From: a virus
Reading direction: 5' to 3' (one strand)
Virus record (IMG/VR): IMGVR_UViG_3300028569_000167
Location: 1 to 24,336 of that record
DNA: 24,336 nucleotides
Each line of letters starts with the position of its first letter. Position 1 is the first letter of the stretch. The notes under the pieces are model-generated. The model searched no databases, was not told where the DNA came from, and worked only from the letters and a program-made list of their open reading frames with translations. This document shows, one piece after another, positions 751 through 18,801 of the stretch. The translations under genes were made by a program, and so were the position numbers.

Positions 751-1716
751 ATGTACGAACACGAATACACAAATACAGGTTCACCTACACCTGAAATGCA
801 AACCGAGCTTACCAAGCCCAAGCACCTTATATCACTGGCATCAAGTGGCATGCTCGTGGCGTTGGAAGTTAGTGTGTGGTCTGCAACAAAGCAAGACAAG
901 GCTATCAGTAATGAGGTTACTACCTCAAAGAACGCTGACAAGTCTGCGGGCCGCTACACCAAGAACTTACTCGCTGACCATCCCAAGCACAAAGCGCTGA
1001 TGAACTATCGCCAGACTATGTACAACTGGATGAAACGCATGACCTACTCGTGGAACTCGGCGCAGTTTTACTTACCAACGGCTGAACTGCCTAAGTTTAT
1101 GCAGGAGTACAACGCCCACGATGCAGAGTTTAATCGCACCCTCAACGACTTCATCGTCAGTTATGACTCTATTGTTTCAGACATGGCGTTCAAGCAAGGT
1201 GACATGTTCAACCGTAACGACTACCCGAGCGCAGAACAAGTGCGTAACAAGTGTGGCATGCACCTGTATGTGAACGATGTGCCGATGAACGACTTCCGAG
1301 TTGGCATCGCTCAGGACTTGGCTGATGATTTGTTTAATACATATTCACGACAGACTGAAACGATAATCGACAACATTGTGTCGCAACAGGCTGAACGCTT
1401 TACCGAGGTGATGGAGTCGATCAGTCATTGCTGTGGACATGATGAGGTGGGTGTTGACAAGCATGGCGATACGAAACTTAAACGCCGCAAAATCTATGAC
1501 ACAACGCTTAACAAGGCGCGGGAGATGTGCGAGTCGTTTAAGAACTTCAACCTGACCAACAGCCATGAGTTAGAACAAGCACGAGCCAAGCTCGAACAAA
1601 CCTTGCGCGGTGTGACCGCTCAGGACTTGCGTGAGTCGGATGCAGTACGATATATCGTGAAAGCGGGTGTCGATGACGTGTTAGACAAGTTTGGGTCTTT
1701 TAAGTCTTTCAGCTAA
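751..1716 (+). CDS. phage protein of the AAA/VWA module, DUF3150-like
   Basis: This 321-residue soluble protein is mostly helical, with no signal peptide or membrane segment. Features I can see: an N-terminal part with VSVWSA followed by a charged helix; a central 'LP--ELPKFMQEYNAHDAEFNRTLNDFIVSYD' helix; a block GDMFNRNDYPSAEQVR followed by VNDVPMNDFRV; and a long C-terminal helical region rich in E, R and K. The FN--DYPS...(V/P)--DFRV pattern is one I associate with a phage protein family found beside MoxR-like ATPase and VWA genes, often labelled DUF3150. That assignment is from memory and tentative. No catalytic motif is visible. Its place as the first gene of the module suggests a substrate adaptor or regulator for the ATPase. 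ATAGGA lies 8 bases before the ATG. Confidence 0.75.
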   Translation: MYEHEYTNTGSPTPEMQTELTKPKHLISLASSGMLVALEVSVWSATKQDKAISNEVTTSKNADKSAGRYTKNLLADHPKHKALMNYRQTMYNWMKRMTYSWNSAQFYLPTAELPKFMQEYNAHDAEFNRTLNDFIVSYDSIVSDMAFKQGDMFNRNDYPSAEQVRNKCGMHLYVNDVPMNDFRVGIAQDLADDLFNTYSRQTETIIDNIVSQQAERFTEVMESISHCCGHDEVGVDKHGDTKLKRRKIYDTTLNKAREMCESFKNFNLTNSHELEQARAKLEQTLRGVTAQDLRESDAVRYIVKAGVDDVLDKFGSFKSFS

Positions 1717-1764
1717 TACATTTATACATACCACAATTTTAGTAACTACTCCACAACATACTCA

Positions 1765-1800
1765 TTCTTAATTCACTTATTACTTTCTTAATTCATAGGA
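1765..1800 (+). promoter_or_regulatory. leader motif copy 2 with an 11-bp direct repeat
   Basis: The 93-bp gap before the ATPase gene holds AATTCACT (1770-1777), then 17 bases, then ATAGGA (1795-1800), matching the leaders at 715 and 2959. It also holds two exact copies of TTCTTAATTCA at 1765-1775 and 1785-1795, offset by 20 bp, close to two helical turns. The second copy touches the ribosome binding site. The rest of the gap is AT-rich, with no convincing promoter or terminator. Confidence 0.45.
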
Positions 1801-1809
1801 TTTTATATC

Positions 1810-2934
1810 ATGAGCAAAATCAATTTCCACGACACAATGACAATCAAAGAACTCCGTGCGTACATCCCCGCAGTCGGTGAAGATTTGACAGTAGTCGTAC
1901 AGTCAGAACCCGGATGTGGTAAGACCTCGCTGTTATCTATGATTGCCTCAGACAATGGGGACAAGTGGCGCAAGGTCGGTGACAACTACCCCGATGACAA
2001 GTATGACTACATCTACGTAGACTGTCCGGTCAAGGACATGGCTGACATTGGCATGGCTATCCCGAACCACGCAACAAAGACACTTGAGTACTACGTTGCA
2101 TCGCTGTTCAAGATGGGTAACGGCAAGCCTAAGTATGTATTGCTTGACGAGTTTATGAAGTCACCCAAGTTAATGCAGGTGATCTATACGCGCCTGATGC
2201 TTGAGAGAACCGTAGGTGATGAGCCACTACCTGAGCGGGATGGTCGTAGGTCTGTCGTGTTTGCAACATCTAACAATGCCACAGATATGGTTGGTGACAG
2301 CATGCTTGCACATGCCGGCAATCGGGTATGTATTGTTCCAATGGCTAAACCAACTGTAGATGAGTGGTTGACTTGGGCTACTGAGGCAGGTGTCAGTCGT
2401 GTTATCCGTACCTTTGTAAAGATGTTTCCCCGATGCATGGCATCTTACAAGGACGGTGAGCAAGATGACAACCCCTACATCTTTCACCCCAAGAAGTCTG
2501 CGCTGTCGTTCTGTTCACCTCGCTCTTTGTACAAGTCTGATGCAATCGTATCCAAGCGTGGACGTATTACAGAGAATGCGTTGATGGTCGGTCTGTGCGG
2601 CACGATTGGTATGTCGGCTGCTAAAGACATGGCTGCGTTGTTGTCACTAGATAATAAATTACTTGATGTACGTGATCAGATTATCGTTGACCCCAAGAAC
2701 GTGGCTGTGCCTGATGACATTGCAGCACAACTGATGATTATGTTTCAGGCAGTGGATGTGTTGGAGACACAAGATGAGTTGTCATCGTTTATGGAATTCG
2801 TAGGCCGTATCAAGTCATCCGAGATTCAGGCTGTGTTCTTTACCATGATGATGCGTAACACTCGCACCATTCGCTTGGCGCGGAACAACAAGAGTATCTC
2901 TGCGTGGGCTTCTGCCAATCACGAGTTGTTTTAA
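1810..2934 (+). CDS. MoxR/CobS-like AAA+ ATPase
   Basis: This 374-residue ATPase has Walker A SEPGCGKTS at residues 32-40 (Lys38), Walker B YVLLDE at 109-114 (Asp113, Glu114) and a sensor-1 region FATSNN at 151-156. A candidate arginine finger, Arg172, sits in AHAGNRV. The block 'LLDE-F-K-P--MQVIYTRLMLERTVGD' is typical of MoxR-branch AAA+ proteins, including CobS and RavA, which work with VWA-domain partners to remodel proteins or insert metal. The first Walker A glycine is Ser here. The C-terminal 150 residues are helical and unrecognised. The downstream gene encodes a VWA protein, which supports a MoxR-VWA pair. ATAGGA lies 9 bases before the ATG. The AAA+ class is secure; the substrate is unknown. 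Confidence 0.9.
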   Translation: MSKINFHDTMTIKELRAYIPAVGEDLTVVVQSEPGCGKTSLLSMIASDNGDKWRKVGDNYPDDKYDYIYVDCPVKDMADIGMAIPNHATKTLEYYVASLFKMGNGKPKYVLLDEFMKSPKLMQVIYTRLMLERTVGDEPLPERDGRRSVVFATSNNATDMVGDSMLAHAGNRVCIVPMAKPTVDEWLTWATEAGVSRVIRTFVKMFPRCMASYKDGEQDDNPYIFHPKKSALSFCSPRSLYKSDAIVSKRGRITENALMVGLCGTIGMSAAKDMAALLSLDNKLLDVRDQIIVDPKNVAVPDDIAAQLMIMFQAVDVLETQDELSSFMEFVGRIKSSEIQAVFFTMMMRNTRTIRLARNNKSISAWASANHELF

Positions 2935-2942
2935 TAACTGAC

Positions 2943-2987
2943 GGTTCACAGTAGGGTGAATCACTATATAACTAACATCGCATAGGA
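2943..2987 (+). promoter_or_regulatory. leader motif copy 3 with a small hairpin
   Basis: The 59-bp gap before the VWA gene holds GGTTCAC (2943-2949) and GTGAATC (2956-2962), which can form a 7-bp stem with one G-T pair around a 6-base loop. Overlapping its 3' arm is AATCACT (2959-2965), then 16 bases, then ATAGGA (2982-2987). This is the third copy of the leader pattern seen before the two preceding genes. The hairpin lacks a T-run, so it is not a typical terminator. It could instead tune message stability. Confidence 0.4.
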
Positions 2988-2993
2988 AATCAA

Positions 2994-4256
2994 ATGAAAG
3001 ACAAACAAGAAAGTAGAATCAAACGCGCTCACATCATGTTGATGAAGCACCAACAGACAGCGTTGTACTCAGGCGTGATGCTTATGGGTAACACCGAGGT
3101 CGTTGATGGTTCTTTTAGCGCATACACCGATGGTGTCAACAAGAAGTATTGTCGGCAATTCTTGGAGGGTATCAAGGAGGACTCCAAACTGCGTGGCTTA
3201 GTGTTGCATGAGAATTTACATGTTGCGCTGAAGCAGATGCCTCGTGGTCGTGATATGTGGAAAGAGGACGCCAAGCTTGCGAACGTAGCGGCTGACCTCG
3301 TGGTCAATGACATCATCGTGAACATTACTGGGTGCGTGGACAAGACAACCGAGCGCATTGTGGAGTTACCTGATGGTGGATTGCATGATGCTAAATATAG
3401 TAATTGGTCAATGCATGAGATATACAACGACTTGAAGAAACAGAACCCACAACGTCAACAGCCCAAGCCACAGGGGGGTGAACCACAAGATAGTAAGGGT
3501 CAGGACGATGACAAGATCAACGTCAACGGCAAACAGTATGACCTGAGTGACCCACGACTTGACGAGCATGACATGGCAGGTACGGAGGAGTTGAGTGCTG
3601 ACGAGATCAAAGAGCTTGATGGGAAGATTGACCGAGCTTTGCGTGAGGGTGGCATCCTTGCAGGGCGTGTGGGTGGGAACATTCCTAGATCAATCTCTGA
3701 CTTGTTGCAACCTCAGATCGACTGGCGTGAGGAGTTGGCTGAGTTCGTGTTAAGCGCAACCAAGGGTAGTGATGAGTTCACTTGGCGCAAGATGAACAAG
3801 CGTCAGATGGCTAATGACATCTATATGCCAAGCGTTGAGAACGAGACGGTCGGTGAGATCATCGTAGCTATCGACACTTCAGGCTCTATCGGGTCGGCAG
3901 AGATCACAGAGTTTGCTACCGAGCTTGTTGCAATCTGTAATGCATGTACGCCTGAGCAAGTGCGTGTGTTGTGGTGGGATACCAAGGTGCATGGTGAGCA
4001 GATGTTTACGGAGAAGGACTACGGCAACCTTGCGGGACTTCTCAAGCCCTTGGGCGGTGGTGGTACACACGTCTCATCGGTCAGCGAGTACATCGTTAAG
4101 AATGGTATTAGAGCAGAGTGTGTGCTTGTGTTCACTGATGGTTACGTAGAAGGCAACGTCAAGTGGGAGATCACTTCACCTACGCTGTGGATGATTACAC
4201 AGAACCGTTCGTTCACGCCGCCTGTCGGCAAGTCAGTTATGTTTAACAGAGATTAA
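2994..4256 (+). CDS. metallopeptidase-like plus VWA-domain protein (DUF2201 type)
   Basis: This 420-residue protein has two domains. The N-terminal half contains LVLHENLHVALKQM, an HExxH zinc motif at residues 72-76 (His72, Glu73, His76). It is followed by 'ANVAADLVVNDII' (96-108), a helix usual in DUF2201 putative metallopeptidases. A low-complexity Q/P/D/K linker spans about 148-178. The C-terminal half is a VWA fold: IVAIDTSGSIG at 290-300 gives the MIDAS DxSxS (Asp294, Ser296, Ser298), Thr358 lies in GGGGTHVSS, and Asp382 in VFTDGY. All MIDAS ligands are intact. In MoxR-VWA pairs the ATPase acts on or through such a protein; here proteolysis or metal binding may be involved. It is not CobT, since the N-terminal domain differs. 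Peptidase activity has not been shown for the family as far as I know. Confidence 0.88.
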   Translation: MKDKQESRIKRAHIMLMKHQQTALYSGVMLMGNTEVVDGSFSAYTDGVNKKYCRQFLEGIKEDSKLRGLVLHENLHVALKQMPRGRDMWKEDAKLANVAADLVVNDIIVNITGCVDKTTERIVELPDGGLHDAKYSNWSMHEIYNDLKKQNPQRQQPKPQGGEPQDSKGQDDDKINVNGKQYDLSDPRLDEHDMAGTEELSADEIKELDGKIDRALREGGILAGRVGGNIPRSISDLLQPQIDWREELAEFVLSATKGSDEFTWRKMNKRQMANDIYMPSVENETVGEIIVAIDTSGSIGSAEITEFATELVAICNACTPEQVRVLWWDTKVHGEQMFTEKDYGNLAGLLKPLGGGGTHVSSVSEYIVKNGIRAECVLVFTDGYVEGNVKWEITSPTLWMITQNRSFTPPVGKSVMFNRD

Positions 4257-4266
4257 GGAGAATATC

Positions 4267-5337
4267 ATGGCACGATTTGAATATAAAGTATTAAATCAAA
4301 TAACAGAGTCTACTAACCCATATCGTGGGACAAAAAATAAATACCCGATAGATAACCGTAAACAGTCACACAAATACTTCACCTCTGACTACCTAGATGG
4401 TGAGAAGGTATTCCGTATCTTTTATGGTAAGACATATCAAGCGGTGTATCTACCTAGTGACGAAATCGTAGCGCAAGCCAGAGCGAGAGGTGAAAACGTA
4501 TTGTATGGGAACACTATGCCCTTTTATCATGAAATGAAGCCAAATGAAGTAGGTATCGTGCGCCCAGACAATACGTTTGAGTTCACAATTAAGCGGCTGC
4601 ATCAAGGTCTTTGTATGTTCATCAATAATTTTATTAATGGATGGGTATATAGAAGTTCACGGCATGGTGGTTACGTATATGTCGTAAATATTAAGAACTA
4701 TACAGAGGAAGTGTTTCATCCTGTATTCAAGGGTATACGGTTTGGGCTTGGCGAGAACAAAGATGTACATGAGTTAAGTAAGTATCGGTTGACTGGTAGG
4801 TCTGTTAATCGCAAAGAGTCCAAGCAGTTGATGAGTAAGTACTCAGACATGTTCAAGATATCCGAGATCATGGCTAAGACTATGAAGCCTGAAGACTTTG
4901 TGATGACAGCGGTTGAGGTAGTGAACACAGCGTATAACATTGATCTGACTAACGCGCCTAACTCATACTTACATATGGATGATGAGAAACATGATGAGGT
5001 GCTGATGAGGGCGGAAGAACAAGTCAGTTTTGCGCCGCTCGATTCATTACTTTTATTCGGGAGACACTTAGGCGTAGATGGTTTACAGTTTTATCGTTTA
5101 TATAAACAGGCTAAAAATATTACAGGCGATACGTCTACAGGATACACCGCCTACTACTCCCGCTTGCTAGACCCATTGACCGCAGTAAAGGCAGTCAAGC
5201 GTAAGCTATCCAAGTTTCTGTATGAGCGCAACCCAGAAGTTATGAAAGTGTGTGAGCTTGAAGCAGGTAAGCGGTATCCGCAGAGTGACTGGGGATTCAC
5301 CATCACGGTGAACGGCAAAGAAGTTGAACAATATTAA
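4267..5337 (+). CDS. unknown 356-residue phage protein
   Basis: It starts 10 bases after the VWA gene ends, behind AAGGAG (4256-4261), and so belongs to the same transcription unit. The protein is basic and aromatic, with many Tyr and Arg. The first 150 residues look beta-rich (VFRIFYGKTYQAVYLP; GGYVYVVNIKNY). A basic stretch follows (YRLTGRSVNRKESKQL, about 173-188), then helices. A late block, SLLLFGRHLGVDGLQFYRLYKQAK, is helical and hydrophobic-patterned but not a membrane segment. No catalytic motif, signal peptide or coiled coil is evident and I do not recognise the family. The link to the AAA/VWA module is positional only. Base use is somewhat more AT-rich than in the VWA gene. Confidence 0.8.
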   Translation: MARFEYKVLNQITESTNPYRGTKNKYPIDNRKQSHKYFTSDYLDGEKVFRIFYGKTYQAVYLPSDEIVAQARARGENVLYGNTMPFYHEMKPNEVGIVRPDNTFEFTIKRLHQGLCMFINNFINGWVYRSSRHGGYVYVVNIKNYTEEVFHPVFKGIRFGLGENKDVHELSKYRLTGRSVNRKESKQLMSKYSDMFKISEIMAKTMKPEDFVMTAVEVVNTAYNIDLTNAPNSYLHMDDEKHDEVLMRAEEQVSFAPLDSLLLFGRHLGVDGLQFYRLYKQAKNITGDTSTGYTAYYSRLLDPLTAVKAVKRKLSKFLYERNPEVMKVCELEAGKRYPQSDWGFTITVNGKEVEQY

Positions 5338-5351
5338 TTCAGGAGATTTAA

Positions 5352-6323
5352 ATGAGCGATTACATTTTTGATGGATGCGAGTCAGAAGAACTCGAACAAA
5401 CCATCCTCAACAACAAGGCACTCCCCCTCATCCGTGAGCTTGCGTTCAAGTACAAGTTAAAAGTACTCAAGACCGTGAAAAGTAATGACGTAGCAGATGG
5501 GGGTGTTAATTTTGTTATGGCTAAGTCGGAGGGTATAGTAGCGGGCTTTCCCATCGGTGAGGTTAGCTATATCATAGAGCGCACATATAAATTAGGTGAG
5601 GAGGTATATACAGATTGCTTTAGCTATTACTCACCTTACTTTCAGAAGTCGCGCGGTAGAACTGAGCGTGATCGCAGGACTATCAAGATTCAAAAACTGG
5701 CATCACTTATGGCTACTATAAAAAGAATGGATGCTATCCCTGAAGACATTGATATTCAGAACTTTCAAGTAGACAGTATGCGGGATGGTTATAGACGCAC
5801 CGCAGCACACTTGGGTAGAGTTGACAGGGATTCGGTTCTTGAGTCAAAACATATTCAAGCGTTAGTTAAAAATGTAATTGACGGTTCACCTGTACCTACA
5901 GATATGTTACATATCTGTAAAAGACAACTTGACATCTTTAACGCCGCAGATAAAATTGAGTCTGACAAAGTTAATGAACTCAAGAGAATGTTTGCTACAG
6001 AATTCTATGCTATCGGCGCAAACCGTAACGGCGACATGATGTTAGGCACATTACGTCTTGAGACGGACTTCAAACAATGCTCAGCATACAGTTCAGATGA
6101 ATTCAAACTCATCAAGCCATTCAAGCGCATCAAGTCTATTGAAGACGCACCGGAGATCATACCTATCATGACGATGTTGAAAGTCGCAAGTGAAGGTTCA
6201 GATAGAGATAGGTTATGCGGCATCCCAACTGATGCGAAGTTTTATCCTGAACTGGATTTGGTGGTTGAGTACTACCGCTATCCAGACTTGTACAACTTTG
6301 TCTGGGCGTTAACCCCATGCTAA
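5352..6323 (+). CDS. unknown 323-residue phage protein
   Basis: It follows the preceding gene by 14 bases, with AGGAG at 5341-5345. It has an acidic start, then a beta-rich part (VNFVMAKSEGIVAGFPIGEV, SYIIERTYKLGEEVYTDCFSYY). A basic stretch, FQKSRGRTERDRRTIKIQKLASLM (about residues 97-120), could contact nucleic acid. A mixed C-terminal half ends in YYRYPDLYNFVWALTPC. No enzyme signature, zinc motif or membrane segment is visible. The last bases overlap the next ORF by 7 nt, indicating coupled translation. I do not recognise the family. Its constant company with the gene before it suggests a shared job, but nothing in the sequence names it. Confidence 0.8.
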   Translation: MSDYIFDGCESEELEQTILNNKALPLIRELAFKYKLKVLKTVKSNDVADGGVNFVMAKSEGIVAGFPIGEVSYIIERTYKLGEEVYTDCFSYYSPYFQKSRGRTERDRRTIKIQKLASLMATIKRMDAIPEDIDIQNFQVDSMRDGYRRTAAHLGRVDRDSVLESKHIQALVKNVIDGSPVPTDMLHICKRQLDIFNAADKIESDKVNELKRMFATEFYAIGANRNGDMMLGTLRLETDFKQCSAYSSDEFKLIKPFKRIKSIEDAPEIIPIMTMLKVASEGSDRDRLCGIPTDAKFYPELDLVVEYYRYPDLYNFVWALTPC

Positions 6324-6691
6324 AGGGAACGAACTTAAAGCTTCCCCCAGTCAGTCACAAAACTTTGCACAATCACGTCAGGGTATTTATGTTTAGGCAA
6401 GATAACTATTGGGTGTGGGTAGATACAAACTACACCCGAGTGTATGACGATGACACATTACCTGATGAGATTAAAACAAAACTAGCGATGGTACTGGCTA
6501 CACCACGACACGGCAAGATACATACTCAGGAGGAGGTAGAAATGAACACGCTACTTCCGTACATTAACAACCACAACCCTGAACTAAACGAGGTAGGTTG
6601 GCAGTCAACTGAAAATCTTTTCTGCATCGTGTTACCTACACAATATTTAAATTCACTCAAGGGTGAACAACTAACTAAGGAACTGACATGA
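6317..6691 (+). CDS. unknown 124-residue protein
   Basis: The ATG at 6317 overlaps the upstream stop, and no clear ribosome binding site precedes it, so expression would depend on coupling. An internal ATG at 6389, behind CAGGG, is an alternative start giving 100 residues beginning MFRQDNYWVWVDTNYTRVYDDD. The part after that Met is aromatic and beta-rich, then mixed helix, and ends NSLKGEQLTKELT. Its end overlaps the next gene's ATG by four bases (ATGA). No motif is recognised. The gene is probably real because of the overlaps at both ends; the exact start is uncertain. Confidence 0.65.
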   Translation: MLKGTNLKLPPVSHKTLHNHVRVFMFRQDNYWVWVDTNYTRVYDDDTLPDEIKTKLAMVLATPRHGKIHTQEEVEMNTLLPYINNHNPELNEVGWQSTENLFCIVLPTQYLNSLKGEQLTKELT

Positions 6692-9083: not shown

Positions 9084-10952
9084 ATGAACTTAATTACTCT
9101 GGACTACGAAACCTTTTACTCAAAGGACGTAGGCTTTAAGAAGATGACCACAGAAGAGTACGTGCGTCATCCTGAGTTTCATGTGATAGGAGTCGGCGTA
9201 AAGATTAATAGCGGAGAACCTGTTTGGTATTCAGGCACTCACGATCAGGTGAAAGACTATTTAACAAACCTGACTGACTGGAGCAACGCTGCATTGCTCT
9301 GTCATAACGCGCTGTTTGATGGTTGCGTACTAGCGTGGCACTTTGGTATCAAGCCTAAGCTGTATCTGGATACGTTGTGTATGGCTCGTGCTATTCATGG
9401 CGTGGAGGCGGGTGACTCGTTGAAAGCCTTAGCTGAGAAGTATGAGCTAGGTGTTAAGGGTACAGAGGTGGGGGATGCGATTGGCATGAAACGTACGGAC
9501 TTCTCGCCGCTTAGTCTTGCGGCGTACGGAGAGTATTGCAAGAACGATGTGCAGCTTACGTTTGATTTGTTTAGAGAACTGGTATCGGTATTCCCAGAAA
9601 ATGAAATAAAACTTATTGACATGACACTGCGCATGTTCATAGACCCAGTCTTCCAAGTTGACGACGCACTGCTAGCCGCAAGGCTTGAAGAAGTAATAGA
9701 GGAGAAGTCAAACCTACTTAAGACTCTGATGGTCAAGCTTGAGTGTGAGACAGAAGAAGCTGTACGTAAGAAGCTTGCAAGCAATAAACAATTTGGCGCT
9801 CTCTTAGAAGAACTTGGCGTCAAGCCCCCGATGAAGGTGAGCAAGACTACAGGCAAAGATACGCTTGCACTTGCTAAAAATGACGAAGGGTTTATTGCGC
9901 TGACCGAGCATGAGGATACGTTCATCCAACAACTGTGTGCGGTGCGTCTGGGTACTAAGTCAACGATTGAAGAGTCCCGCATTGCTAGGTTCATCGACAT
10001 CGGTGCGCGTAACAAGGGGCTACTACCTATCCCGCTAAAGTATTATGGCGCACATACAGGCAGGTGGGCTGGCTCAGACAAGGTGAACTTCCAGAACTTG
10101 CCGAGTCGAGACAAGAAGAAGAAAGCGTTGAAGAACGCCGTAGTCGCGCCCGAAGGCTATGAAGTTATTAACTGTGACTCATCACAGATTGAAGCCCGAG
10201 TACTTGCATGGCTAGCAGGACAAGATGAGTTGGTCGAAGCGTTTGCCAAGGGTCAGGATGTCTACTCTTTGTTTGCGTCTAAGATTTATGAACGAGATAT
10301 ATCTAAGGCAAACCCCGTCGAACGGTTTGTTGGTAAGACATGCATCTTGGGATTAGGCTACGGGACTGGCGCATTAAAACTTCAGCACACGCTCAAGACA
10401 TCACCGCCCGGGGCTGACCTCTCAGAGGAACAGTGCAAAGATATCGTTTCACTGTACCGTGAAACCAACGATAAGATCATTCAGCTGTGGCGTGATGGGG
10501 ACGGGGTTATACAAGACCTAGCAAACTGGGATAACGCCAAGCCATACTACTACGGCAAACACAAATGCTTATACATCAGTGAGGAAGGGATACGTCTACC
10601 CAATGGTTTATACATTCGCTACCCACAGCTATACCTCAACACTGATGAAGATAAATCCCGATACATGTACAAGTCACGTAGAGGGCCTGTGTCTTTGTGG
10701 GGTGGGGCGCTTGTGGAGAATGTAGTGCAAGCCTTGGCGCGAATCATTGTGGGTGAGCAGATGCTTAGGGTAAACGAGCGTTACCGAGTTGTTTTAACCG
10801 TACACGATGCGGCTGTAGTTGTGGTAAAAAAAGAAGAGTTGGACGAAGCAATGAAGTACATCATAGATGTTATGTCAACCCCGCCTGACTGGGCTACAGG
10901 GTTACCTGTGGCGTGTGAGGCTAATCACGGAGAGAGTTATGGAGACTGTTAA
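9084..10952 (+). CDS. polA: family A DNA polymerase with 3'-5' exonuclease domain
   Basis: This 622-residue replicative polymerase has an exonuclease domain at about 1-170. Exo I is DYET (Asp7, Glu9), Exo II CHNALFD (Asn75, Asp79) and Exo III YCKND (Tyr151, Asp155), all intact. There is no 5'-3' exonuclease domain. In the polymerase domain, TGRWAG...NFQNLPSR (325-342) precedes motif A VINCDSSQIEARV (361-373, Asp365). Motif B is R414-K418-L422-Y426 in RFVGKTCILGLGYG, and motif C is TVHDAAV (573-578, Asp575). The motif B residue equal to E. coli Phe762 is Leu422. Motif C has Ala576 where most family members have Glu. CAGGGA at 9071-9076 precedes the ATG. Confidence 0.96.
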   Translation: MNLITLDYETFYSKDVGFKKMTTEEYVRHPEFHVIGVGVKINSGEPVWYSGTHDQVKDYLTNLTDWSNAALLCHNALFDGCVLAWHFGIKPKLYLDTLCMARAIHGVEAGDSLKALAEKYELGVKGTEVGDAIGMKRTDFSPLSLAAYGEYCKNDVQLTFDLFRELVSVFPENEIKLIDMTLRMFIDPVFQVDDALLAARLEEVIEEKSNLLKTLMVKLECETEEAVRKKLASNKQFGALLEELGVKPPMKVSKTTGKDTLALAKNDEGFIALTEHEDTFIQQLCAVRLGTKSTIEESRIARFIDIGARNKGLLPIPLKYYGAHTGRWAGSDKVNFQNLPSRDKKKKALKNAVVAPEGYEVINCDSSQIEARVLAWLAGQDELVEAFAKGQDVYSLFASKIYERDISKANPVERFVGKTCILGLGYGTGALKLQHTLKTSPPGADLSEEQCKDIVSLYRETNDKIIQLWRDGDGVIQDLANWDNAKPYYYGKHKCLYISEEGIRLPNGLYIRYPQLYLNTDEDKSRYMYKSRRGPVSLWGGALVENVVQALARIIVGEQMLRVNERYRVVLTVHDAAVVVVKKEELDEAMKYIIDVMSTPPDWATGLPVACEANHGESYGDC

Positions 10953-11166
10953 TCTTTACGAGGAAGGTGCTGTGGATTGTGTCAAAGCGTATCATGTGTG
11001 GCAACTTAATACGCCGACGACAGGTCACGTTGTGCCATACGATATTTAGCGGGCAGGGTGGTTAGCCTCGCAAGCGTATTATGAGAAAGAAATTAATAAA
11101 ATGACAGACCAGATTGATAGCTTGTGTATTGATCTGGAAATTAAACGTGGGAATATAAAGGAATAA
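10939..11166 (+). pseudogene. small phage ORF interrupted by an in-frame TAG
   Basis: An ATG at 10939, behind GGAGAG inside the end of polA, opens METVNLYEEGAVDCVKAYHV and runs 36 codons to TAG at 11047-11049. The same frame then continues open as RAGWLASQAYYEKEINKM through 38 more codons to TAA at 11164-11166. The next gene begins two bases later. The joined 74-residue product resembles small phage proteins with a 'Y--G--A------N-P------W--GW--A' layout, in which the part after the TAG (RAGWLASQAYYE) is the expected C-terminus. Point mutation, sequence error or stop-codon read-through would each explain it. TAG ends several other genes here, so general recoding is unlikely. Confidence 0.5.
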
Positions 11167-11168
11167 AC

Positions 11169-11360
11169 ATGACTATCAAGAAAAAATCTGAAGCATTAAA
11201 TAGATTTAAAGGCGAGTACAAACCTCCTCGCGCGGACAGGTTATCAATGCGTACAGGTTCTATGGACATCCTACAAGCACCTAGCCGCATTAGTAATAGC
11301 TTGTTTTATCCAGATGAAAAAATAATAAAACAGGTTGATAACAAAACACTTTCGGGGTAA
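11169..11360 (+). CDS. small basic protein, unknown
   Basis: This 63-residue protein has a Lys/Arg-rich N-terminal half (TIKKKSEALNRFKGEYKPPRADRLSMR) and a polar C-terminal half (ISNSLFYPDEKIIKQVDNKTLSG). AAAGGA at 11157-11162 lies six bases before the ATG, a good ribosome site. No domain is recognised. Basic charge suggests contact with nucleic acid, which is only a guess. It sits between the interrupted ORF and the Cas4-like nuclease. Confidence 0.6.
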   Translation: MTIKKKSEALNRFKGEYKPPRADRLSMRTGSMDILQAPSRISNSLFYPDEKIIKQVDNKTLSG

Positions 11361-11389
11361 TATGTATACTTAAACTTTCAAGGACTAGC

Positions 11390-12046
11390 ATGAGTTTTAC
11401 ATGGTCATACTCTTCGCTAAAAGACTACGTTAACTGCCCTCGTCAATACAAGGAAGTTAAAGTCCTTAAGCGATACATCAAAGCTCCTACTCAGCAGATG
11501 ATATACGGAACTGAGGTGCATAAAGCGTGTGAAGATTATGTTGCCGAGGGTAAACCCCTAGCTAAAAACTATGAGCGGTTTAAACCCATGCTAGATGCCT
11601 TGAAAGAAATATCGGGGGTACGTTATCCAGAGCTTAAAATGGCTCTAACGCACGACAAACATCCTTGTGAGTTTGCAGCCGAGAATAGATGGGTGCGCGG
11701 TATTGTAGACTTGTTAATTGTGGACGGGGACTATGCGTTCATCGTGGATTACAAAACTGGCAGTAACAAATATCCTGATCCAAAACAGTTAAAACTGATG
11801 GCACTGATGACGTTTGCGCATTTCCCAGAGGTTCAGAACATTAAAGCAGGACTGTTGTTTGTGATGCACGACAGCTTTATGACGGAAGAATACAAGCGCA
11901 GTGACATTTATAAACTCTGGGGTAGTTTTCACAGAGACCTTGAAAGGTTAAAATTCTCTTATGAGACAGATGCTTGGATGCCTAACCCTACGCCTTTGTG
12001 TGGATGGTGTCCTGTCCGAGAATGTGAATATCATAAGGAACGGTAA
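11390..12046 (+). CDS. Cas4/RecB-like PD-(D/E)XK nuclease with Fe-S cysteines
   Basis: This 218-residue nuclease has motifs in order: SYSSLKDYVNCPRQY at 6-20, usual at the start of the PD-(D/E)XK_1 family; His44 in GTEVHKA; Asp107 in RGIVDLL; FIVDYKTG at 117-124 (Asp120, Lys122); and PKQLKLMAL at 131-139 (Gln133). Four cysteines, Cys16 plus Cys204, Cys207 and Cys212 (CGWCPVREC), have the spacing of the iron-sulfur cluster that clamps Cas4 and AddB nucleases. All expected active-site residues are present. Such proteins are DNA exonucleases that make single-stranded ends for recombination. There is no cas gene nearby, so it is a phage recombination nuclease. AAGGA at 11380-11384 precedes the ATG. 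Confidence 0.92.
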   Translation: MSFTWSYSSLKDYVNCPRQYKEVKVLKRYIKAPTQQMIYGTEVHKACEDYVAEGKPLAKNYERFKPMLDALKEISGVRYPELKMALTHDKHPCEFAAENRWVRGIVDLLIVDGDYAFIVDYKTGSNKYPDPKQLKLMALMTFAHFPEVQNIKAGLLFVMHDSFMTEEYKRSDIYKLWGSFHRDLERLKFSYETDAWMPNPTPLCGWCPVRECEYHKER

Positions 12047-12354
12047 TGCCCTACGTAAATAAGAAACGCCCATATGAGAAAGAATACCAGCAGCAGTTAG
12101 AGCGCGGTGAGCATGACAATCGTATGGAGCGTCAGCGAGGTCGCCGCAAGATTGATAAAGAAGATACAGGTACGGTCACTAAGAAGTCCCCTAGACGTGC
12201 TGGTAAAGATGTAGCGCACACCAAAGCTTTAAGTAATGGTGGTTCTAATGCGGATGGGCTGAAGCTTGAATCCCCCTCAAAGAATCGTTCGTTTAAACGT
12301 AGTTTTAGTGGTAGCTTGGTATCAGAAACCAGCAAAAGAGAACGTAAAAAGTAG
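12046..12354 (+). CDS. basic protein with a degenerate HNH-like segment
   Basis: This 102-residue, very basic protein has a start that shares one base with the nuclease stop (TAATG). Residues 55-83, DVAHTKALSNGGSNADGLKLESPSKNRSF, follow the layout of HNH endonucleases ('D(H)-K-LS-GGSN--NL-----NRS'). They keep His58 and the final Asn80-Arg81, but the usual Asp before the His is Ala57. No Cys pairs are present. I recall small phage proteins of this type near replication genes. Catalytic ability is doubtful because of the altered motif; DNA binding is likely from the charge. The rest is low-complexity Lys, Arg and Ser. Confidence 0.65.
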   Translation: MPYVNKKRPYEKEYQQQLERGEHDNRMERQRGRRKIDKEDTGTVTKKSPRRAGKDVAHTKALSNGGSNADGLKLESPSKNRSFKRSFSGSLVSETSKRERKK

Positions 12355-12364
12355 TTCAGGAATA

Positions 12365-12403
12365 GCGCCGCTGTTAGGCATGAGTGGGTGGCGCGGGGCT
12401 TTT
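12365..12403 (+). terminator. possible weak terminator hairpin
   Basis: GCGCCGC (12365-12371) pairs with GTGGCGC (12388-12394) in a 7-bp stem with one G-T pair and a 16-base loop. GGGGC and only four T residues (12400-12403) follow. It lies 10 bases after the stop of the HNH-like gene. The long loop and short T-run make it weaker than the terminator at 15724. Confidence 0.3.
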
Positions 12404-12425
12404 GATTGTTATACCCTTTAACCAT

Positions 12426-12495
12426 GTCAGTTGAGCGGCGAGAGTCCCTATCTCACTGCGCGTCAGGCTCAACCGACTTACCCCCGTAAGGGGTC
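12426..12495 (+). ncRNA. structured intergenic RNA candidate
   Basis: GTCAGTTGAGC (12426-12436) and GCTCAACCGAC (12467-12477) form an 11-base stem with a single A-C mismatch and a 30-base loop. The loop has a smaller GAGA/TCTC pairing. A second hairpin, ACCCC and GGGGT around CGTAA, spans 12480-12494 directly before the helicase ribosome site (AAAGGA). The 161-bp gap (12355-12515) is the longest without a plausible ORF. It is GC-richer than the other gaps. It may be a small RNA or a 5' regulatory leader for the helicase gene. It does not fold as a tRNA. Confidence 0.35.
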
Positions 12496-12515
12496 TCTTA
12501 GTCAAAGGAACAGTA

Positions 12516-14078
12516 ATGGAAATAGTGCAAGATCAAGCAGTGCGCTTTAAGTTGCAGTCAGACTTAGCACCCATCGTCACTGAGTATGTAGAGCGCAGCG
12601 AAGTTTTAAGCGAACAACACAACATAACAGATATGTTAGTGTACTGGGGCTTAAAAGAAATGCGCACCATAGCTAAGATACAAGACGATTTAAAAATACC
12701 TTCACCCATACTACGCGATTACAAGTGGCCCGGCATGTACACGCCGTTTGACCACCAGAAAACTACTGCATCATTCCTATCCCTACGAGACCGCGCCTTC
12801 TGTTTTAACGAGGCTGGTACAGGCAAGACATCGTCTGTTATTTGGGCGGCAGATTATTTAATGACTCAGGGATTGGTGAAACGAGTATTAGTGATATGCC
12901 CCCTGTCGATCATGTATTCAGCATGGCAAGCAGACATATTTAAGACAGCCATGCACAGGACAGTAGCCGTAGCATATGGTGACGCGCACAAGCGTAAGAA
13001 GATTCTCAGCGGAGACTACGAGTTTGTAATCATTAACTTTGATGGTGTAGGCATCGTGCAAGATGATATACCTAATCTTGGATTTGATCTAATTGTTATA
13101 GACGAAGCTAATGCGTATAAGACCGCAACCACTAAACGATGGAAGACACTCAACCGTATCTTAAAGCCAAGTACAAAGCTCTGGATGTTGACTGGCACCC
13201 CCGCATCTCAATCGCCTAACGATGCGTATGGATTAGCTAAACTTATATCTCCCGGTAGGGTACCCCGCACGTTCGGGGCTTGGCGCGATAAAGTCATGAC
13301 GCAAGTGACTAGGTTTAAGTGGGCACCAAAACCCAATGCGCGGGATCAGGTGTTCAGCGCATTACAACCTGCGATTAGATACGCCAAAGCAGAGTGCTTA
13401 GACTTACCAGAACTTGTGTATCAGACAAGAGAAGTGCCACTGACAGCGCAGGCAAACAAGTACTACAAGACATTGAAGAGCCAACTGATGATAGAGGCGG
13501 CAGGTGAAGAAGTCAGCGCCGTTAACGCAGCCTCTGCACTAAGTAAGTTGTTGCAGATATCAGGAGGTGCGGTTTATACCGATACCCACGAAGTTATTGA
13601 GTTTGATGTAAGCCCACGACTAAATGCTCTGATGGAAGTACTAGATGAAACAGATCATAAGGTGGTGGTGTTCGTACCGTTCCGCCATACGATAGATGTC
13701 GTATCCAATTACTTAACTAGCCAAGGAGTAGCCAATGAAATAATACAAGGAAGTGTATCGGCAAGAGAGCGCTCAGAGATAATCAATTGCTTTCAAAATA
13801 TGACCGCGCCTAGAGTGTTGGTCATACAGCCACAAGCTGCCTCACATGGGATTACCTTGACCGCTGCTAATATGGTAGTGTTCTGGTCGCCTGTTATGAG
13901 TGTAGAAACGTACTTACAATGCGTAGCACGAATAGACCGAGTTGGGCAGAAAAACAGCATGACTGTCGTACACCTAGAGGGGTCTGAAGTCGAACGCAAA
14001 ATGTATCGGATGCTTCAAGGCAAAGTTGATTTGCATGAGAAGCTGGTAGATCTATATAAACAAGAACTAGGGGTTTAA
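12516..14078 (+). CDS. SNF2-family superfamily 2 helicase/translocase
   Basis: This 520-residue protein has both RecA-like lobes. In the first, FDHQKTTASFL (78-88) precedes motif I NEAGTGKT (98-105, Lys104). Motif Ia is VLVICPLS; motif II is VIDEANAYK (Asp196, Glu197, with DEAN in place of DEAH); motif III is LTGTPASQ (225-232). In the second, VVVFVPFRHTI starts the lobe, motif V is QAASHGITLTAAN, and motif VI is CVARIDRVGQ (469-478), the SNF2-type ending with both arginines. Phage SNF2 proteins of this compact size move on duplex DNA and are thought to remodel replication or recombination forks. No extra nuclease or DNA-binding domain is seen. AAAGGA at 12504-12509 precedes the ATG. Confidence 0.93.
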   Translation: MEIVQDQAVRFKLQSDLAPIVTEYVERSEVLSEQHNITDMLVYWGLKEMRTIAKIQDDLKIPSPILRDYKWPGMYTPFDHQKTTASFLSLRDRAFCFNEAGTGKTSSVIWAADYLMTQGLVKRVLVICPLSIMYSAWQADIFKTAMHRTVAVAYGDAHKRKKILSGDYEFVIINFDGVGIVQDDIPNLGFDLIVIDEANAYKTATTKRWKTLNRILKPSTKLWMLTGTPASQSPNDAYGLAKLISPGRVPRTFGAWRDKVMTQVTRFKWAPKPNARDQVFSALQPAIRYAKAECLDLPELVYQTREVPLTAQANKYYKTLKSQLMIEAAGEEVSAVNAASALSKLLQISGGAVYTDTHEVIEFDVSPRLNALMEVLDETDHKVVVFVPFRHTIDVVSNYLTSQGVANEIIQGSVSARERSEIINCFQNMTAPRVLVIQPQAASHGITLTAANMVVFWSPVMSVETYLQCVARIDRVGQKNSMTVVHLEGSEVERKMYRMLQGKVDLHEKLVDLYKQELGV

Positions 14079-14079
14079 C

Positions 14080-14481
14080 ATGAGTACAAATGTAGAAGAA
14101 TTAGTAAACATATACTTGACAATAAGAAATCAACGTGAGAGCATACTAAGAGAGTACGAAGCAAAAGACTCTGAACTAAAGAAGGATCTTCAGAGTGTGG
14201 AGCAGTTACTACTAGCAGTTTGTAATGAAACTAATTCTGACGGTTTCAAAACAAGCGCAGGTAGTGTGACACGCAAACTCAACGAGCGGTTCTACTGCAA
14301 CGATTGGGATAATTTCCGAAAGTTTGTGATGGAGAACGATGCGGTTGAATTGTTTGAGCGGCGTATTCATCAGGGCAATTTTAAAGAATTCATGGCAGGG
14401 CATGAGCAGGATGGTCTCCCGCCCGGTATTAACGTTATGAAAGAGTTTTCAATCACCGTCCGTAAACCAACCTCTAAATAG
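14080..14481 (+). CDS. coiled-coil phage protein of the replication block
   Basis: This 133-residue protein's N-terminal 50 residues form a charged helix with heptad pattern (ELVNIYLTIRNQRESILREYEAKDSELKKDLQSVEQLLLAV). A compact domain follows, with 'SDGFKTSAGSVTRKLNERFYCNDWDNFRKFV', 'NDAVELFERRIHQGNFKEFM' and 'LPPGINVMKEFSITVRK'. I recall this whole layout, including (D/S)W--F--F(V/I)---DA-ELLERRIHQ-N--(E/Q)F and LP-G-NV, from many phages, always beside the helicase and the Cys-cluster protein and never given a function. A Gam-like or accessory single-strand role is possible from the coiled coil, but unproven. It starts one base after the helicase stop. Confidence 0.82.
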   Translation: MSTNVEELVNIYLTIRNQRESILREYEAKDSELKKDLQSVEQLLLAVCNETNSDGFKTSAGSVTRKLNERFYCNDWDNFRKFVMENDAVELFERRIHQGNFKEFMAGHEQDGLPPGINVMKEFSITVRKPTSK

Positions 14482-14505
14482 TCTGATTCAGTAAAGGAAA
14501 TTAAA

Positions 14506-15366
14506 ATGAGTAACGAACTCGCAAACCTGTTGTCCAGTAACCCCGCCCTCGCAGGGCTAGATGAAGATACCCTTGCCGTAGCAGGGGGCGGTGGTAAAGG
14601 CGGAGTCAAGCGCATCTCTATTAAGGGCGGTGTGTTCCGTAAATATTCTGGCGGTAAAGAAATTGGTGCTATCGAAGACCGACACATGAACATCATCATT
14701 GTCAAGATGGCACACAAGGCTTCACGTATGCTCTACATGCAGGGCTACAAAGAGGGTGAGAAGATCAGCCCGACTTGTTGGTCAAGCAACTCAGATGTAC
14801 CAGACCCAGAAGTTAAGAGTCCTGTAGCTAAGAGCTGTAGCGATTGCCAGTACAGCGTCAAAGGCTCAGGCGATAACGGTATGGGTACAAAGTGTAAGCT
14901 CTCATGGCGCACAGCAGTTGTGTTGCCCGCTGACCCATCGGGAGATGTCATGCAGTTGGTGTTGCCAGCTACATCGTCTTTCGGTAAAGAGGATAACGGG
15001 CGTTGGCCTTTCCGTCCTTACATTCAGCACTTGGCTTCACACAACGTATCGGCTGGGCGCGTTATTACCCGCATGGCGTTTGATACTAAATCTCCAGTGC
15101 CTAAAGTCTTGTTCTCACCCGCAGGTGTTACGCCAGAGGCTGACTTAGAGACTATCGCTATGCAAGCAAAGAGTGCCGCTGCTGAAGCCGCTGTCAAGAT
15201 GAGTGTCTATCAAGTTGACAATAGCGAAGAAGGTGATGGTGGTTTTGAACAGACACCCGCACTTGAAGCTGTAGCAAAACCTGTGAAGCGTGAGTCTACT
15301 AAGGCAACCGCCGAGCAAGCATCAGACGTTTCTGGTGTTCTCAAGAAATGGTCTAAGAAGGAGTAA
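14506..15366 (+). CDS. candidate phage ssDNA-binding protein with a Cys cluster
   Basis: This 286-residue protein opens with a Gly-rich loop (AVAGGGGKGGVKRISIKGG, residues about 25-43). A beta-rich core follows (VFRKYSG, MNIIIVKMAHKASRMLY). Next is a cysteine group: Cys in SPTCWSSNSDVPDPEVKSP, then CSDC, then CKLSWRTAVVLP, which could bind zinc. FGKEDNGRWPFRPYIQHL precedes the tail, and the C-terminal 80 residues are flexible and rich in Ala, Glu and Lys. The pattern 'CWS-(N/S)--PD----P---SC--C......G.KC....R-AVV' is one I recall from abundant phage proteins taken as single-strand binding proteins. Its position between the SNF2 helicase and the primase agrees. There is no typical acidic SSB tip; it ends VLKKWSKKE. 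AAAGGA precedes the ATG. Confidence 0.65.
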   Translation: MSNELANLLSSNPALAGLDEDTLAVAGGGGKGGVKRISIKGGVFRKYSGGKEIGAIEDRHMNIIIVKMAHKASRMLYMQGYKEGEKISPTCWSSNSDVPDPEVKSPVAKSCSDCQYSVKGSGDNGMGTKCKLSWRTAVVLPADPSGDVMQLVLPATSSFGKEDNGRWPFRPYIQHLASHNVSAGRVITRMAFDTKSPVPKVLFSPAGVTPEADLETIAMQAKSAAAEAAVKMSVYQVDNSEEGDGGFEQTPALEAVAKPVKRESTKATAEQASDVSGVLKKWSKKE

Positions 15367-15370
15367 GGAA

Positions 15371-15688
15371 ATGCCACGGACATACAGTGAAAAATTCTTG
15401 TTGGAGATGCACCAAGCTGATCCTTACCGCGCAGGTGTTCAGCTTGCCAAGGCTTGTGTTAAGGCGAACTTACCCGCTAAATATGTAGCCGAGGCGCTTG
15501 GTGTTACCCGCATGACAGTTTACAGTTGGTTCCGTGGCAAACCTATCCGCGACAAAAACCAACAGGTCGTTGAGGTATTTACTGAGATTGTTGAGGGGGA
15601 CATGATGCGAGGTATATTGCCAGCAAACAATCTTCAGCAAGCAAAGAAGTACATCGAAGACATGATCGGTAAGCCGTTGAAGCAATAA
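15371..15688 (+). CDS. helix-turn-helix phage protein
   Basis: The start at 15371 follows AAGGA (15366-15370 region) and avoids a longer version that would overlap the previous gene. The 105-residue product begins MPRTYSEKFLLEMHQADPYRAGVQLAKACVKANL. It then has a clear helix-turn-helix, AKYVAEALGVTRMTVYSWFRG (about residues 35-56), and ends LPANNLQQAKKYIEDMIGKPL. I recall close relatives in many phages next to the SSB candidate and primase. They probably bind DNA as transcription or replication factors. It is the last gene before a strong terminator, so it may control the primase gene downstream; this is inferred from position only. Confidence 0.82.
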   Translation: MPRTYSEKFLLEMHQADPYRAGVQLAKACVKANLPAKYVAEALGVTRMTVYSWFRGKPIRDKNQQVVEVFTEIVEGDMMRGILPANNLQQAKKYIEDMIGKPLKQ

Positions 15689-15693
15689 AATAA

Positions 15694-15711
15694 GGGGGGC
15701 TTCTGCCCTCC
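15694..15711 (+). terminator. GC-rich hairpin without T-run
   Basis: GGGGGGC (15694-15700) and GCCCTCC (15705-15711) form a 7-bp stem with one G-T pair and a TTCT loop, five bases after the HTH gene's stop. It has no T-tract. It probably works together with the true terminator 12 bases further on, as a pause or mRNA-end stabiliser. Confidence 0.5.
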
Positions 15712-15723
15712 GCCCAAACAACT

Positions 15724-15748
15724 AAAGCGTGAGCAGTCACGCTTTTTT
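15724..15748 (+). terminator. strong intrinsic terminator in front of the primase gene
   Basis: AAAGCGTGA (15724-15732) and TCACGCTTT (15737-15745) form a perfect 9-bp stem with a GCAG loop, followed by TTTTTT (15743-15748). This is a textbook rho-independent terminator. It ends only 16 bases before the primase ATG at 15765. TGAGCAG (15730-15736) can instead pair with CTGCTCA (15754-15760), which would break the terminator stem. This suggests an attenuator rather than a plain end of the transcript. Confidence 0.85.
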
Positions 15749-15764
15749 AAACTCTGCTCAAGAA

Positions 15765-18617: not shown

Positions 18618-18801
18618 GCCAGAGTGGATATTCCCGTTTGATGGTATGAACGTAGGGGACAGCTTTTTTGTGCCAACCCTACGTCCTGCTGAAATGGTTT
18701 ACGTCATAGACTGTTGCGCCAAACGCGCACGTATCCGCATCAAGTCGTACCCAACTTATAAGGATGGCTGCATTGGTGTACGATCTTGGCGCGTGGGCTA
18801 G
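18595..18801 (+). CDS. small phage protein with 'VGDSFFVP...GVRSWRV' pattern
   Basis: This 68-residue protein overlaps the primase end by 23 bases; an ATG at 18580 would add five residues, and neither start has a strong ribosome site. The sequence has 'IFPFDGMNVGDSFFVPTLRPAEM', a Cys pair (CC) and a C-terminal 'RIRIKSYPTYKDGCIGVRSWRV'. I recall small phage and prophage proteins with the same bracket, 'YPF--M-VGDSFFVP' and 'R----(E/D)G-RVWRV', as a beta-rich DNA-associated family without known role. Its stop TAG shares CTAG with the stop of the convergent minus-strand gene. Confidence 0.7.
   Translation: MTPNQILEPEWIFPFDGMNVGDSFFVPTLRPAEMVYVIDCCAKRARIRIKSYPTYKDGCIGVRSWRVG

Follow-up and report, generated by a model that had tools for sequence, protein, structure and literature searches.

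Three genes in a virus genome fragment

The stretch of DNA analysed here (24,336 bases, henceforth the window) is IMG/VR virus record IMGVR_UViG_3300028569_000167, a fragment in which three successive genes at 751-4256, all on the plus strand, encode a DUF3150-type protein, a divergent MoxR-like AAA+ ATPase and a protein that joins an HExxH zinc site (zincin) to a von Willebrand factor A (VWA) domain (Table 1). A preliminary description of this DNA had placed such a module here, and its three open reading frames (ORFs) were confirmed and are intact. Judging from their motifs, their conservation, their linkage and the homology of the phage and plasmid components, the three proteins very probably form one ternary, ATP-driven remodelling machine.

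The third gene scored over the Pfam cut-offs for PF13203 (E 2.5e-24, 86.8 bits, cut-off 23.2) and for PF09967, DUF2201 (E 4.4e-17, 62.8 bits, cut-off 26.4), and the VWA half of its structural model (predicted local distance difference test, pLDDT, 79.6) has a clear VWA fold. Foldseek placed the metal ion-dependent adhesion site (MIDAS) domain of midasin first (E 1.2e-4) and also listed the NorD VWA chain of NorQD; the VIA-align alignment of the same model spanned the VWA half only, and the VWA profile, searched against PDB sequences, matched only unrelated or repetitive proteins. The zinc-site residues (H72, E73, H76) and MIDAS residues (D294, S296, S298, T358, D382) singled out in the preliminary description are all present and conserved in 88-90 of 90 relatives. 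Peptidase activity would be predicted from such a zinc site. Three Paraburkholderia VWA proteins (L134, L135, L136) have lost HExxH and kept the MIDAS, and the core activity may accordingly be remodelling and not cutting. The label HNH endonuclease, attached to the third gene through PHROG 1314, was ruled out by the Pfam assignment to zincin-VWA. PHROG 1314 bears that label though its members, including the window protein and N4 gp25 (L002:11164-12306), are zincin-VWA proteins, and the RefSeq records of N4, LUZ7, Presley and other phages carry it as well.

The second gene matches PHROG 1297, 'ATPase' (E 6.6e-39). Pfam AAA_5 and AAA_3 gave no match to it at E 0.1, and weak matches in 7/33 and 6/33 relatives, respectively. 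Midasin is its best PDB sequence match (E 1.2e-5), the profile of its family matches CbbQ/CobS-type AAA_5/CbbQ_C proteins with a probability of 80-97%, and its Walker B motif opens a MoxR-like signature, DE-x(2)-KSPK-x(2)-Q...ER, in which the position of E114 is mostly D in Burkholderiales rows. Walker A, Walker B and a candidate arginine finger, already listed in the preliminary description, proved to be near-invariant in 93 relatives. Because these motifs, the midasin match and the AAA_5 profile match support the MoxR label and no Pfam match is over the cut-off, we describe the product as a divergent MoxR-like ATPase.

For the first gene the single-sequence Pfam score against DUF3150 (PF11348) was sub-threshold (20.0 bits, cut-off 24.9, E 4.6e-4), hence the name 'DUF3150-type'. 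Support for reading it as a distant DUF3150 homologue, not a Pfam member, comes from profile-profile comparison with canonical DUF3150 (hhalign probability 84-94%, E 7.6e-6 to 1e-7; unrelated controls <=0.3%), from structural similarity to a BFVD model of a phage 'DUF3150 domain-containing protein' (E 1.9e-15) and from a common W-S-[AG]-x-[KR] pattern, seen in WSATKQD here, IWSGRK in canonical proteins and TWSATR in Aeromonas caviae. The product is predicted to be mostly helical, with two long helices (residues 110-152 and 182-227), in a model of moderate quality (pLDDT 76, predicted template modelling score 0.45). Comparison of this model with the PDB (Foldseek, VIA-align) retrieved only helical bundles of a common kind (best Foldseek E 0.23, Z 8.0), and tblastn of the protein against 50,697 phages gave no match, relatives being reached only with profiles. 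Among the family names put forward in the preliminary description, DUF2201 was thus recovered over its cut-off, MoxR by motifs and profile comparison only, and DUF3150 below the Pfam threshold. We consider the DUF3150 protein, to which the preliminary description gave little weight, the most informative part of the module.

Table 1. Features of the module and its surroundings in the window. Counts are of aligned relatives that keep the residues.
Feature	Position	Strand	Length	Conservation or basis
DUF3150-type gene	751-1716	+	321 aa	ORF list
WSATKQD motif, residues 43-49	877-897	+		stretch most clearly common with canonical DUF3150
Divergent MoxR-clade AAA+ ATPase gene	1810-2934	+	374 aa	PHROG 1297, N4 gp24 family
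Walker A EPGCGKTS, residues 33-40	1906-1929	+		G35/G37/K38 in 92/93 relatives, remaining one a gap
Walker B YVLLDE, residues 109-114	2134-2151	+		D113/E114 in 93/93
Sensor 1 Asn155	2272-2274	+		93/93 IMG/VR, 7/7 phages, 34/34 Burkholderiales/plasmid rows
Arg172, candidate arginine finger	2323-2325	+		93/93, 7/7, 33/34
Arg238, other arginine finger candidate	2521-2523	+		invariant in IMG/VR, phage and Burkholderiales/plasmid groups
Zincin-VWA gene	2994-4256	+	420 aa	DUF2201_N + DUF2201; N4 gp25 family
HExxH zinc site H72 E73 N L H76	3207-3221	+		90/90 IMG/VR, 7/7 phages, ~32/35 Burkholderiales/plasmid rows
Asp101 (N-x3-D), candidate third zinc ligand	3294-3296	+		90/90, 7/7; aligned with E-D of SXT-type VWA proteins
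MIDAS DTSGS: D294, S296, S298	3873-3887	+		90/90 IMG/VR relatives
MIDAS T358 + D382	4065-4067, 4137-4139	+		88/90, remainder gaps
Companion genes (n=3), fast-evolving	4267-5337, 5352-6323, 6317-6691	+		usually 3' of VWA gene, order kept
DNA metabolism genes downstream of module	9084-18617	+		order kept in relatives
Family A DNA polymerase	9084-10952	+		Pfam/PHROG
PD-(D/E)XK nuclease	11390-12046	+		Pfam/PHROG
SNF2-type helicase	12516-14078	+		Pfam/PHROG
Primase-like protein	15729-18617	+		Pfam/PHROG
Protein containing HExxH (HEIVH)	18798-23879	-	1693 aa

Linkage and selection

All three genes were present in 79/79 informative IMG/VR loci (those with enough sequence), in the order DUF3150-ATPase-VWA in 75 and ATPase-VWA-DUF3150 in four; six loci lack the DUF3150 gene, and in each the contig breaks off at its expected position. 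The conserved neighbourhood on which the preliminary description had staked its case is therefore kept. A genome scan with one Burkholderia plasmid DUF3150 protein yielded 33 Burkholderiales loci, 32 of them ordered ATPase-DUF3150-VWA, while in the 33rd the contig starts just before the DUF3150 gene; some of the trios on annotated plasmids adjoin type IV secretion system (T4SS) genes. The trio is also present in an isolated cyanophage, Planktothrix phage Pag-Yong1 (DUF3150, E 7e-37). ORF96 of Tunturiibacter phage Tunturi_3 (L161:6926-7885), labelled HNH endonuclease, is DUF3150-type by hidden Markov model (E 8e-22), and the annotated ATPase of that phage went unrecognised by the ATPase profile. 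N4, V5-like phages, AR9, SCTP-2, Thermus phage phiFa, CRP-7 and a Rhizobium phage have the ATPase and VWA pair with no DUF3150 gene in the stretches read.

The existence of such pair-only phages would be compatible with mere co-location, i.e. three genes that share one operon while the DUF3150 protein has an unrelated role. We regard this as very unlikely, as the linkage survives the change of gene order in the four ATPase-VWA-DUF3150 loci and is seen again in phages, on T4SS plasmids and in SXT/IncC elements (see below) despite their differing neighbourhoods.

The trio genes are under purifying selection, as the preliminary description had supposed, with a ratio of nonsynonymous to synonymous substitution rates (dN/dS) of 0.085-0.12 against the closest relative, at a dS near saturation. 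Their median identity is 61-65%, compared with 70% for the DNA polymerase and 31-38% for the next genes. The HExxH, the MIDAS, Walker A and B, sensor 1 and the two arginines are almost invariant in ~90 relatives and seven phages.

Relatives on conjugative elements

Comparison at the sequence level indicates that the trio is not confined to phages: conjugative plasmids and integrative and conjugative elements (ICEs) carry a three-part version of it. Searching plasmids for canonical DUF3150 proteins gave 1168 that carry one (E 1e-5), 978 of them typed conjugative. In 8/8 plasmids read, the surroundings of DUF3150 include ssb, RecT/Bet and/or lambda-exonuclease as well as an AAA+ ATPase gene; an annotated VWA gene lies 3' of DUF3150, directly or past one small gene, in 7/8; the Aeromonas caviae gene in this position is annotated as hypothetical and has a D-x-S-G-S motif and no HExxH. 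Likewise, five genomic loci taken from Pfam DUF3150 have a CobT-like VWA gene nearby (5/5) and, in three of the five, an AAA_5 gene. Profile comparison of the window family with the SXT/R391-IncC proteins gave probabilities of 84-94% for DUF3150 and 80-97% for the ATPase, against <=0.3% for unrelated pairs; for the VWA proteins the value was 34-58%, with separate matches over the MIDAS and HExxH regions. By their order, the SXT genes s067, s068 and s070 probably belong to the module. What the preliminary description took for an uncharacterised phage module is still best described as a remodelling-type trio, one that is also carried by plasmids and ICEs and whose two-part form, the ATPase-VWA pair, was already known from jumbo phages (PMC7824862) and N4 (gp24/gp25).

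Two records filed as plasmids deserve mention. CP057073.1 (L102), a 137.6-kb E. coli entry in PLSDB, shows the gene arrangement of V5-like phages (cf. phage naam), and NZ_CP110465.1, a 75-kb Acinetobacter baumannii entry with the VWA gene, is as long as the genome of an N4-like phage.

HExxH is present in 6/8 VWA-position proteins of DUF3150 elements, aligned at the phage HExxH position, and absent at that position in 6/6 true CobT proteins. Given this difference, a zincin-VWA plan appears to be common to the phage and plasmid proteins and not kept by CobT, and the choice of CobS-CobT as functional analogue in the preliminary description was wrong. Metal insertion in the manner of CobS-CobT, NorQ-NorD or Mg-chelatase, as the 'CobS auxiliary metabolic gene' label would have it, does draw on an ATPase and a VWA partner of the same clade, on matches of the SXT-type ATPase and VWA proteins to CobS and CobT models, far under the cut-off (93.8 vs 558 bits; 38.9 vs 759 bits), and on the name CobS used for the ATPase in some phage papers (PMC11705849). 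The zinc site kept by the element proteins argues against it, as does the fact that no chelatase catalytic subunit or cofactor enzyme adjoins the module in the loci read, and we hold it to be most improbable. An NCBIfam search of the window proteins gave nothing meaningful and no CobS/CobT match.

A putative machine and its possible target

In NorQD the VWA protein is driven by an ATPase ring and grips the target with its MIDAS (PMC9976466, PMC13036017). By analogy with this system, with RavA-ViaA and with midasin, the AAA+ protein, which has the necessary motifs, would assemble into a MoxR-type ring. The VWA protein would couple to the ring, its MIDAS holding a segment of the target that the N-terminal zincin domain would then cut, or merely bind, as it is presented. 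The DUF3150 protein, whose gene is linked to those of the other two, may be a dedicated third subunit, a helical adaptor by which the target is recruited or is connected to the ring and the VWA protein. Genomic context and timing suggest as target one of the element's own replication or recombination proteins (exonuclease, annealase, single-stranded DNA-binding protein (SSB), polymerase, helicase) or a host protein bound there, and the machine would act early, ahead of virion assembly, in phages and conjugative elements alike.

A target of this kind is favoured because replication and recombination genes are the neighbours that the module has in common between phages and SXT/IncC-type elements. 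The window, with the 1693-aa gene on its minus strand, and a 65.7-kb relative (G002) are divided by strand in the same way; in G002 the module and replication genes lie on one strand and the late genes (terminase, portal, a head protein with head-protease family matches, tail fibre) on the opposite one. As for timing, the AR9 ATPase-VWA pair has an annotated early promoter just upstream, and N4 gp24/25 are middle transcripts (PMC4193335); no data on the essentiality of gp24/25 were found in the literature searched.

The same observations bear on the one role in print for the MoxR-vWA(metallopeptidase) pair, that of a chaperone-protease in virion assembly or maturation (Iyer 2021, PMC7824862). 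This proposal has a precedent in the MoxR-VWA proteins of Acidianus two-tailed virus (cited in PMC7824862), and phage structural proteins often need proteolysis. As a general role it is disfavoured, and in our view improbable, because conjugative elements, which account for most of the DUF3150 plasmids, make no virions, because of the AR9 early promoter and the N4 middle transcripts, and because the module sits in the replication arm, the head-protease matches of G002 belonging to a separate protein in the late arm. The maturation role raised in the preliminary description loses ground for the same reasons.

The main rival is counter-defence or host takeover, in which a host protein, either a defence complex or a DNA-processing enzyme, would be unfolded or cut by the machine early after phage or plasmid entry. 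Early or middle expression, occurrence in both phages and conjugative elements and the intact protease-like site speak for such a role; besides, in Pag-Yong1 (L166:6815-9996) the VWA gene lies two genes from an annotated anti-CRISPR, AcrVA2, and the SXT/IncC genes are conserved yet nearly dispensable for transfer. The median identity of the trio across divergent phages, near that of the DNA polymerase, is unlike that of typical arms-race genes, however, PADLOC defence models gave a weak P-loop match only, and the neighbours are replication and recombination genes more than defence islands. We consider counter-defence unlikely.

Several observations weigh against a ternary machine that remodels replication or recombination complexes. 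The third part is not universal, since in most pair-bearing phages the stretches read revealed no DUF3150 gene, and proteolysis is not always needed, since the three Paraburkholderia loci have lost HExxH and kept the MIDAS. The ATPase gene of IncC is found upstream of ssb-bet-exo and is not adjacent. Deletion of s067, s068 or s070 lowers SXT transfer <=10-fold (PMC2791158), and no strong phenotype is known. The assignment of the target is guilt by association, and Burkholderiales trios adjoin T4SS genes instead. On balance, we give an even chance to a remodelling machine that acts on the replication or recombination complexes of mobile elements. Our fuller proposal is tentative and less likely than not to hold: an ancient ternary unfoldase/protease of mobile elements, common to lytic phages and SXT/IncC, would remodel exonuclease/annealase/SSB complexes or their host partners, with CobT as a VWA relative without the zinc site.

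Surroundings of the module

The three fast-evolving companion genes are linked to the trio, and we do not claim them as subunits; those at 4267-5337 and 5352-6323 have no family match in Pfam or PHROG. A piece of N4 gp50 (virion RNA polymerase) had no phmmer match in large G002 proteins or in the 1693-aa protein of the window, in a single-sequence search that is weak and with a window that is a fragment. A near-palindrome, gtatagtataactatac, at ~641-657, 5' of the module, is a possible regulatory site.

Comparison with known systems

NorQ-NorD, RavA-ViaA and CobS-CobT also combine a MoxR-clade ATPase with a VWA partner bearing a MIDAS, and the motor principle is likely the same. They differ in that no DUF3150 protein is known with them, that their targets are respiratory or cofactor enzymes and, for true CobT, in the missing zinc site. 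The VMAP, iSTAND and FtsH ternary conflict systems (Kaur et al. 2020, PMC7159879) resemble the module more in plan, as a MoxR-vWA pair is accompanied by a defining third protein. In the window that protein is DUF3150-type, no Pfam match to the VMAP, iSTAND or FtsH third component was found in the module proteins, and the setting is one of mobile elements, with no variable effector set seen.

The jumbo-phage MoxR-vWA pair (Iyer et al. 2021) has the same ATPase and zincin-VWA architecture, and homologues were found in SCTP-2; a third subunit is undescribed there, and none was found near the SCTP-2 pair. N4 gp24, listed as an AAA+ ATPase, and gp25 are among the proteins common to N4-like viruses (Schitoviridae core). 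They are homologues of the ATPase (E 5e-19) and the VWA protein (E 2e-104), encoded by neighbouring genes and with HExxH and MIDAS intact. In the 45 kb of N4 searched no DUF3150 gene was found, and the weak gp50 search described above gave no counterpart of the N4-type virion RNA polymerase among the window-family proteins compared. Our literature search found neither DUF3150 nor the ternary arrangement, which other papers could contain.

The AAA-DUF3150-VWA genes of the SXT/R391-IncC core have all three components, homologous by profile and beside ssb-bet-exo; their VWA protein is longer and CobT-like, their ATPase is of the CbbQ/NorQ type and the elements are conjugative. The comparison would give a shared identity to conserved genes without an assigned function that lie in the SXT/R391 and IncC core and also in N4-like and many aquatic phages. 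It would add a third subunit to the known ATPase-VWA pair, and it calls into question both virion assembly as the proposed role and the label 'CobS auxiliary metabolic gene'.

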